From: an uncultured Aequorivita sp.
GTDB lineage: Bacteria; Bacteroidota; Bacteroidia; Flavobacteriales; Flavobacteriaceae
Length of the DNA: 64,000 nucleotides
NCBI GenBank assembly: GCA_937125455.1
Contig: CAKZLK010000030.1
Location: 1-64,000, forward strand
Reading direction: 5' to 3'
The notes beneath the pieces are model-generated. The model did not search any database, was not told the origin of the DNA, and was given only the letters and a program-made list of their open reading frames with translations. Of the stretch, positions 62,467 to 64,000 are shown piece by piece (within the stretch, counting starts at the first letter, position 1; every line of letters begins with the position of its first letter). A program made the position numbers and the translations under genes.

Positions 62467-62539
<73 letters not shown>

Positions 62540-62552
62540 CTAGCAAAGACAG

Positions 62553-62688: not shown

Positions 62689-63369
62689 TCAGTTCGAAAC
62701 TTGTTCTATATTGAGTTGAGGTTTGTATTTCCTAAAAAGTGCCAAATCAAATTTTAATTGTTGCAAGCCATACCCTTTCAAATCATAGATTTTCTTCCGG
62801 CAACATTTCTTGTATTTAGGCCCGCCACATAATGGACATTCTTTATTGGGGTGATATTTGATGCCATTAATGGCCGTTTCCAATAAGGAAACAATATTTT
62901 TTAAATCAGATAGTCCAAATTCTTCTTGGTAAAATTGTGCGATACCATCAAAGTGGTGCTTGTATTCCCCATTCGCATAACCCCCTGTGGATTCTTTATA
63001 ATGATAATTGGCAAAAAAAGGATATATAACTTCTCTGTAAAACTCTTCAAAAACGATACCTCTCCCTTTTCTTTTCATTAGCTTATGCGGAATGTCCAAA
63101 CAACATTCCCCTTTCTTGGAAATATGAAAGTCCCAATCTCTATTGATAATTTGAGTTTTCTCGATTACCATAGGAACGGTATATGGGTATTCAGCTTCGT
63201 TTATAAGAATTAGGATTTTAAAGTGCCCCCAGAGCTTATCACTTTTGTCTAAGACACTTATTTTGCCTTCCAGAGCTAAATATCCGGTTTTAGGGCTTTC
63301 AACTTTCTCAAAGGCAAAATATTTGTCCAGAAAATTTTCAATATCAGTACTGAGGCCTTTTTTACCCAT
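62689..63369 (-). CDS. E2 (ubiquitin-conjugating)-like protein with SEC-C-type zinc motif
   Basis: 226 aa from the ATG at 63369, which overlaps the stop of the cyclase gene (ATGGGTAA, 8 bases); an ATG 15 codons upstream (63414) is also in frame. Residues about 30-125 read as an E2 fold: WGHFKILILINEAEYPYTVP resembles the E2 strand and YPxxxP turn, and FHISKKGECCLDIP matches the E2 active site HPNI...G.ICLDI, with Cys90 the likely thioester Cys and His82. A C-terminal CPLCGGPKYKKCC (178-190) is a SEC-C-type zinc motif. No E1 or JAB protein is near in the window. It most resembles E2-type partners in antiphage systems; the match is by eye only. Confidence 0.7.
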   Translation of the reverse strand: MGKKGLSTDIENFLDKYFAFEKVESPKTGYLALEGKISVLDKSDKLWGHFKILILINEAEYPYTVPMVIEKTQIINRDWDFHISKKGECCLDIPHKLMKRKGRGIVFEEFYREVIYPFFANYHYKESTGGYANGEYKHHFDGIAQFYQEEFGLSDLKNIVSLLETAINGIKYHPNKECPLCGGPKYKKCCRKKIYDLKGYGLQQLKFDLALFRKYKPQLNIEQVSN

Positions 63370-64000
63370 AGTTGAAGTAAGGTTTACTTTTAGAAGCGAT
63401 TGGATACAAATCACGGCTATTCCTGTTGGGATCAGGAAAGGTGTTAATTGTCAATACCAAGACACCCATATCATTTTGAACAGCTAGGTTGTTATCTACC
63501 AAATAGCGTTCCCAATCAAAGTTGTATTGGTAATATTTTCTTCCATCCTCATAATCGTGTATTTCTTTGCTTCGTTGCTCAAAATACTTGTCCTTTCTAA
63601 GTTGTGTTGTCACATTGTGACCTACAACTATGCCACTGTTTTTTGCGTTACTTTGCATTTTAGGTGCAAGACTCGTATGAAGACTGCAAGTAGTAACTTC
63701 GCCTGATTCACCAATGCCGGAATAGAACCAATCCACTTGTTTGGAATGACCCAAATCCAATCCTGCTCTTGTATGTATGTCTTGAATACCATTATCTTCA
63801 AAAAACTCTTTAAGATCATTTTTCACGAAATAGGATATCATAGAGAAGGACTTTAAGGCATCTTCTACGGCTTTTAGCTTTTCTTTCTTTTTTCCGCCGA
63901 AATATACCATTAAACCATCGCCCTGTATGCGATGCACGTAGCCACCGCATAGGTTTACTGCAAATATTGATGCTCGGATGATACTTTCTGTAATCAACCT
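63362..64000 (-). CDS. Class III adenylate/guanylate cyclase-like protein (partial)
   Basis: At least 212 residues; the frame is open at the window edge, so the true start lies beyond 64000 (the leftmost in-frame start codon, TTG at 63997, is probably internal). GGYVHRIQGDGLMVYFGG carries the second metal-binding Asp (GDG) and phosphate-loop region; RAGLDLGHSKQVDWFYSG and GIVVGHNV fit the later strands. The first metal Asp lies outside. The usual Asn-x3-Arg of the family is not clear in VTTCSLHTSLAPKMQ. Cyclic nucleotide synthases of this class, when stand-alone and next to defence-like genes, include Pycsar cyclases. Effector genes may lie off the window. Confidence 0.72.
   Translation of the reverse strand, partial: RLITESIIRASIFAVNLCGGYVHRIQGDGLMVYFGGKKKEKLKAVEDALKSFSMISYFVKNDLKEFFEDNGIQDIHTRAGLDLGHSKQVDWFYSGIGESGEVTTCSLHTSLAPKMQSNAKNSGIVVGHNVTTQLRKDKYFEQRSKEIHDYEDGRKYYQYNFDWERYLVDNNLAVQNDMGVLVLTINTFPDPNRNSRDLYPIASKSKPYFNYG

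Follow-up and report, generated by a model that had tools for sequence, protein, structure and literature searches.

Our results showed that an operon of the order PycTM-PycC-E2 lies at the end of the window, that is, the whole stretch of 64,000 nucleotides from an uncultured Aequorivita sp. that was analyzed, and continues past its last position (Table 1). We consider it probable that a dedicated E2 enzyme regulates the cyclase of this Pycsar operon. Most of the proteins encoded directly upstream of E2s of the window type carry a [KR]-P-[FYW] tail, placed 2–12 residues from the end.

The initial annotation had described a class III cyclase and an E2-like protein, encoded by overlapping genes beside a tRNA. 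Both genes were found on the minus strand at that place; they overlap by 8 bp when the E2 is read from its ATG, and the tRNA, confirmed as tRNA-Met, lies 148 bp from the end of the E2 gene. The same annotation had advised a search for an effector beyond position 64000, and in the extended contig PycTM was present immediately upstream of PycC. PycTM matched PF18967 (3.5e-11, 43.9 bits for a cut-off of 27.2) and the PADLOC model of the 2TM effector (8e-66). The PADLOC model of PycC matched the clipped in-window protein with 1.6e-104 and the whole protein with 5.4e-155, and the E2 matched the PADLOC model PDLC00833 (2.5e-97), which despite its label "E1-E2" spans only an E2-sized protein (222 positions).

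Table 1. Coordinates of the operon and of the element that carries it
Feature	Position	Strand	Remarks
E2-like gene	62689..63369	-	226 aa; most likely start ATG 63369
Alternative longer GTG ORF of the E2-like gene	to 63414	-	
PycC class III pyrimidine cyclase gene	63362..64348	-	328 aa; in-window part 63362..64000, cut by the window end
PycTM effector gene	64349-64843 of the contig (window numbering continued)		164 aa; outside the window, first gene of the operon
PycC C-terminal tail KPYFNYG	63365..63385	-	Proposed E2 recognition and conjugation tag; from the tail comparison
Proposed catalytic Cys90 codon of the E2	63100-63102	-	
tRNA-Met (CAU)	62467..62540	+	ARAGORN; integration site of the operon-carrying element
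Left copy of 45-bp exact direct repeat	62498..62542	+	Covers the 3' end of tRNA-Met
Right copy of 45-bp exact direct repeat	contig C30 99350-99394		Beside the tyrosine recombinase gene
Tyrosine recombinase gene	contig C30 97980-99188		Phage_integrase 5.4e-15; just inside the right repeat

The cyclase fold claimed for the partner of the E2 was borne out, as the window PycC is related to 8JSF, its sole solved match (E 1.6e-60). This is EaPycC from Elizabethkingia, a demonstrated cCMP synthase (PMC11224242). In the alignment, the EaPycC metal residues D102/D146 correspond to D100/D144 of the window PycC, and the CTP residues F100/R142/Q144 to F98/R140/Q142. F98, D100, R140, and D144 were present in 58 of the 58 PycC with a window-type E2, and Q142 in 51 of them (six had H and one N). 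With all three CTP-specificity residues in place, the window PycC is predicted to be specific for pyrimidines. The operon has the features of Pycsar, a PycC with the two metal Asp and a PycTM next to the cyclase. The search in Pfam gave no gathering-level match for PycC (Guanylate_cyc 0.045), and NCBIfam gave none for PycC, PycTM, or the second E2 family described below. A PycC tree was built from 59 rows and came with a long-branch warning.

The AlphaFold2 model of the E2 showed a UBC fold over residues ~1–131 (pLDDT 92.5) and resembled solved E2s, including the Serratia CBASS E2. Cys90 was found in 78 of the 78 E2s and His82 in 77, in agreement with the E2 fold and the cysteine predicted in the initial annotation. 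We propose Cys90 as the active-site residue, based on its conservation and on a weak profile match to UBE2L3 (0.017; query 4–93 on chain 4–89). The C-terminus has a SEC-C-type zinc motif (C178, C181, and C189), and the pattern C-x1-2-C-x5-12-C was present in 74 of 78 E2 C-termini. The C181 column held C in only 20 of the 58 PycC-linked E2s and G in 34, a low count that we attribute to the alignment slipping by one residue between C-x-C and C-x-x-C. The window E2 had no gathering-level match in Pfam (UQ_con 0.072) and only one match, below threshold, in NCBIfam. Homology to the E2 domain of Cap2 is not claimed, because the hhalign match with the E2 alignment was weak (E 0.06, probability 0.91%).

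When the PycC alignment was used for a pattern scan over 84,980 species genomes, 63 PycC loci were recovered, apparently from Bacteroidota. PycTM was present in all 63, and an E2 of the window type (E 9e-22 or better) lay directly downstream in 56, so the pair is not a one-off; these counts come from a scan that favors relatives of its seeds, and the seeds were mostly E2-linked PycC. The third gene of the remaining seven loci belonged to a second E2 family (152–168 aa), of which the member in L023 is called an E2 by PADLOC (PDLC00862, 2.8e-40). A member of this family (P0001) had no single-sequence match in the PDB, but the family profile showed homology to 8HSB_B (1.2e-18), which is the E2 in the CdnG-E2 complex of Serratia. 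Among 395 genomes drawn evenly from the phylum, eight carried this PycC family (threshold 1e-20): four with the window-type E2 (one of them the window's own), one with the second E2, and three without an E2, which were the weakest matches (8.8e-71 to 1.4e-45). Overall, PycTM was directly upstream in 68 of 68 PycC loci, and no E1/Cap2-like match was found in the fetched stretches of these loci. In 52 of the 58 PycC-E2 loci, the cyclase frame and the longest E2 frame overlap.

The E2 profile had matches in 260 of the 395 genomes, with matches below 1e-15 in 10. Below the first twelve rows, the matches covered only the C-terminal part of the profile, mostly in frames of ~1000 aa, and were set aside as presumably the SEC-C of SecA. 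Viral contigs, scanned both with PycC and with the E2 alignment, yielded no relatives. A tblastn search of phage records with PycC gave two distant PycC-like stretches in unannotated records, OR846597.1:48286-48960 (Enterococcus phage Efs 1-1-1) and OK490408.1:19170-19721 (Klebsiella phage Kp4852-2), with 34% and 32% identity (4e-29 and 1e-17), respectively; these may be Pycsar genes or decoys. A small ORF (65–73 aa, ...KGAVKxRSQVxNP...LYVKRD...) occurs before or near PycTM operons in two hosts (L021:3900-4097 and L020:7589-7810) and is perhaps a common neighbor gene of these operons.

The E2 tree was built from 68 rows, with near-identical or broken rows excluded, and had some long branches. 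The PycC-linked E2s formed one group (90/96), and the E2s of CD-NTases were found on several branches. For the family of the window E2, this suggests that Pycsar captured a CBASS-type E2 once, with the second family as a further case. The mixed design proposed in the initial annotation holds, as a Pycsar cyclase and its PycTM coupled to a stand-alone E2 of a kind that is also found beside CBASS CD-NTases.

For the tail comparison, [KR]P[FWY] was scored within the last 20 residues. Beside the window-type E2, the motif was present in 53 of 58 PycC, 17 of 19 CD-NTases, and the one metallo-beta-lactamase (1/1). P-aromatic was found in 57 of the 58 PycC; the exception, L084, has a broken cyclase frame and was retained as a miss. 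The CD-NTases L125 and L154 lack the motif, and L154 retains S-P-W. The motif was absent from all 26 cyclases that go with a different conjugating enzyme or lack one (PycC 0/7 and 0/3; CD-NTase 0/7, 0/6, and 0/3), which amounts to 0 of 25 informative ones, since L165, with a CD-NTase frame cut short and an uninformative tail, was retained. Among other C-termini from the same loci, the motif occurred in 2 of 719. The count dropped 9 of 113 rows, which were stretches fetched twice or identical (L159, L164, L020, L021, L022, L027, L023, L034, and L028), and retained L167, which has masked letters. The rows called Cap2 were assigned with a custom profile, whose alignment matches the PDB Cap2 at 1.1e-18; L169 is a weak member.

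In clusters at 60%, the motif was present in 24 of 28 against 0 of 22 (Fisher 1.7e-10, with clusters treated as independent, which they are not fully). The PycC with a window-type E2 form 12 clusters at 60% identity, and their tail counts are not independent because these proteins are mutually related. The motif was first noticed in seven loci (both G000 copies, G004, G292, G181, G028, and G046) and the count then took in these as well as later loci; without the seven, the counts were 48/53 for PycC, 15/17 for CD-NTase, and 1/1 for the metallo-beta-lactamase. In a free alignment of 46 PycC (42 with the window-type E2 and four with the second family), P323 and Y324 were at least 90% conserved. 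When the tails were aligned on P-[FWY], the 100% values of the motif itself are uninformative and the flanking columns are the informative ones; the linker columns 10–26 residues before the motif had 0.7–1.9 bits each. EaPycC ends in KPYLR, and its near-identical homologue in Chryseobacterium (L081, E 3.2e-218) has a window-type E2 downstream.

The second E2 family goes with another tail. Its PycC end in HRFHY in seven of seven cases, one with further residues after it. The broader pattern H[RH][FY] was found in 7/7 PycC and 3/7 CD-NTases of this family (HRF or HHY), the other four CD-NTases being without it, in 0 of the 90 remaining partners, and in 1 of 719 other genes. The tails thus go with the E2 type and not with the cyclase fold: one cyclase family has different tails according to its E2, and one tail can be common to different cyclase families beside one type of E2. 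A CD-NTase tree built from 35 rows without their tails shows six or more changes of E2 type on well-supported branches. On average, tail and E2 type agreed in 4.8 of six independent pairs, and no pair went in the opposite direction (median p 0.0625, with too few pairs for a lower value). The alignment of the Serratia CdnG ends at 324 of 407, short of the C-terminus.

Two observations were made on other partners. On the Runella slithyformis plasmid pRUNSL03 (L131:1899-3636), a metallo-beta-lactamase-fold protein ending in NAKPWQRG is followed by a SEC-C E2, which makes this an E2-coupled metallo-beta-lactamase system; metallo-beta-lactamase homologues in operons with ThiF-type enzymes have the tails KPMGGQ, QPMGTEHE, and KPMG. 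At L170:982-2460, a 492-aa CD-NTase has a C-terminus that by eye is like the small E2 family (WLFFYEGWLDTGIWYGPEFPH). It is apparently a natural cyclase-E2 fusion, and it was retained in the tail count and scored as having no conjugating enzyme.

Judging from these sequence comparisons, the E2 most likely recognizes PycC and conjugates it via its tail, as proposed for E2-only CBASS. That PycC is what the E2 acts on is suggested by the C-terminal tail common to unrelated E2 partners. In the mechanism that we propose, the E2 would bind the C-terminal tail of PycC (KPYF...), and Cys90 would attack this tail, perhaps with loss of the few variable residues at its end, so that a thioester arises with no separate E1 involved. 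The E2 would then ligate PycC to a lysine, most likely on another PycC or on a membrane or host partner, and this ligation may cluster or prime the cyclase. As expected from the family, phage infection would cause PycC to make cCMP from CTP, and cCMP would open PycTM in the membrane, leading to death or growth arrest of the infected cell.

The idea that a conserved C-terminal Gly serves as the tag was rejected, because the final residue is variable. Over 57 PycC, the last residue was F in 9, K in 8, G in 7, E, D, and R in 6 each, and one of ten other residues in the rest, with A once; thus 8 of the 57 end in G or A, and the PycC of the window operon ends in Gly. With such a variable end, the tail would either be trimmed first or take part in a chemistry unlike that of Cap2. 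In E2-only CBASS, the cyclase is reportedly trimmed. Cyclase-cyclase conjugation has been proposed for an E2-only CBASS, and the tails of Cap2-type cyclases are described as becoming conjugated to lysines (PMC11153139). In the system of PMC10097602, deletion of the terminal Gly is given as abolishing conjugation, with Ala as a partial replacement.

A rather unlikely alternative is that the E2 links PycC to a target other than PycC (a protein of the host membrane or of a phage, or PycTM) instead of building PycC chains, so that the conjugate is a localization tag or a storage form; conjugation could also hold the cyclase off until infection. There is a precedent in the type II CBASS of B. cereus, whose cyclase becomes joined to PspA, which in the authors' model prevents activation (PMC11153139). 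PycTM, the constant upstream neighbor of PycC, is moreover predicted to be membrane-bound. However, the B. cereus system has an E1 and the deconjugating Cap3, whereas the 68 PycC loci gave no E1/Cap2-like match, and the present data single out no particular target.

Still less probable is that the tail is a docking motif only, by which the E2 would bind PycC non-covalently and regulate it allosterically, with Cys90 used elsewhere or unused. A short linear peptide motif at a variable distance from the end would suit docking, and the best structural match of the E2 model was the UEV domain of Tsg101, present in the match list with bound PTAP/PSAP peptides. UEVs are not known to have the catalytic cysteine, unlike the E2s studied here, with their invariant Cys90 and nearly invariant His82.

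The operon is cargo at the left edge of an integrative element of ~36.9 kb in tRNA-Met (contig C30 62498-99394; L003, L180). Between the direct repeats are genes for a TraG ATPase (1.9e-62), a coupling protein, and a DUF5712 protein, which we take to be the relaxase, as well as AbiEi/AbiEii-type and XRE-ImmA/IrrE genes. In a mobile element with such defense genes, the E2 gene could be a chance neighbor that merely travels with Pycsar, but this is very improbable because the two genes are adjacent in 56 of 63 loci from many genera, their frames overlap, and the tails match the E2 type. The PycC protein is 98%–100% identical in Membranihabitans, Salegentibacter, Mesonia, Tamlana, Nonlabens, and Zunongwangia, a sign of recent transfer. 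A genome of the same genus has this operon as well (G004:C64). The element also carries a DNA methyltransferase gene and genes that by eye resemble arsenic resistance (ArsR- and transporter-like). Directly after the XRE-ImmA/IrrE gene there is a gene for 137 aa (L003:3492-3905, contig C30 65491-65904) without a Pfam or PADLOC match, which is possibly a toxin or partner of the XRE-ImmA/IrrE gene.

A second PycTM-PycC-E2 copy was found in the same genome, on contig C61 (L004:8481-10701; C61:92480-94700), beside a tRNA-Leu. It has 78% DNA identity to the window copy over the 1.3 kb compared, and the tail of its PycC is SRPYFNYD. Its E2 is frameshifted and split into two overlapping frames, so either this copy is decaying or the E2 is dispensable at times. 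AbiE-type and XRE-ImmA/IrrE-like genes also adjoin the second copy, with a counterpart of the 137-aa gene in the same arrangement.

The window operon has in common with Pycsar (PycC and PycTM) of the clade E / cCMP type the PycC family, the catalytic residues, and the PycTM effector, and differs by the E2 added as a third gene. In the main text of the EaPycC paper, a word search gave 0 occurrences of "ubiquitin" (PMC11224242). A stand-alone E2 without an E1 is shared with E2-only (type II-short) CBASS, for example the CdnG-E2 of Serratia marcescens (8HSB, 8YJY), but membership in CBASS was rejected because the cyclase is a class III PycC and not a CD-NTase; the window E2 also differs from that of Serratia in its added SEC-C-type zinc motif and in belonging to a different E2 family. 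In type II CBASS with Cap2 (E1-E2) and Cap3, an E2-type enzyme acts on the cyclase C-terminus, as we propose for the window E2, and the B. cereus cyclase tail KPGGFA also contains K-P (PMC11153139). In contrast to that type, the PycC loci had no E1/Cap2 match, and a terminal Gly/Ala is not conserved in PycC. The Bil (bacterial ISG15-like) system is another antiphage use of an E2 enzyme (PMC12948488), from which the window operon differs in that the PycC loci had no E1-like match and the proposed substrate is the cyclase itself.

The initial annotation had also presented the pair as a possible undescribed system. Pycsar with an E2 is a Pycsar variant and not a free-standing new system, and PADLOC models match every part of the operon and already cover its proteins; the literature searched contained no description of Pycsar plus E2. 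Our searches returned no paper joining the two, with the founding papers on Pycsar and on E2-only CBASS outside their reach. What appears to be new here is the tail code, together with its occurrence in three different folds.

We lean slightly toward the view that bacterial E2-only modules are portable regulators that read short C-terminal tags, with at least two families, each with its own tag, acting on unrelated enzymes (CD-NTases, PycC by both families, and a metallo-beta-lactamase-fold protein by the first). The tags are [KR]-P-aromatic for the SEC-C E2s and H-R-F in part of the partners of the Serratia-type E2s. In this branch, Pycsar would then be under the control of an E2 that covalently conjugates its cyclase, which would parallel, in a non-homologous enzyme, the conjugation of cGAS. 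The already crystallized EaPycC (8JSF) carries the tail. If an E2 does regulate PycC via a tag at its C-terminus, control of the ubiquitin-like kind would be a transferable device for bacterial alarm enzymes, beyond the cGAS-like enzymes.
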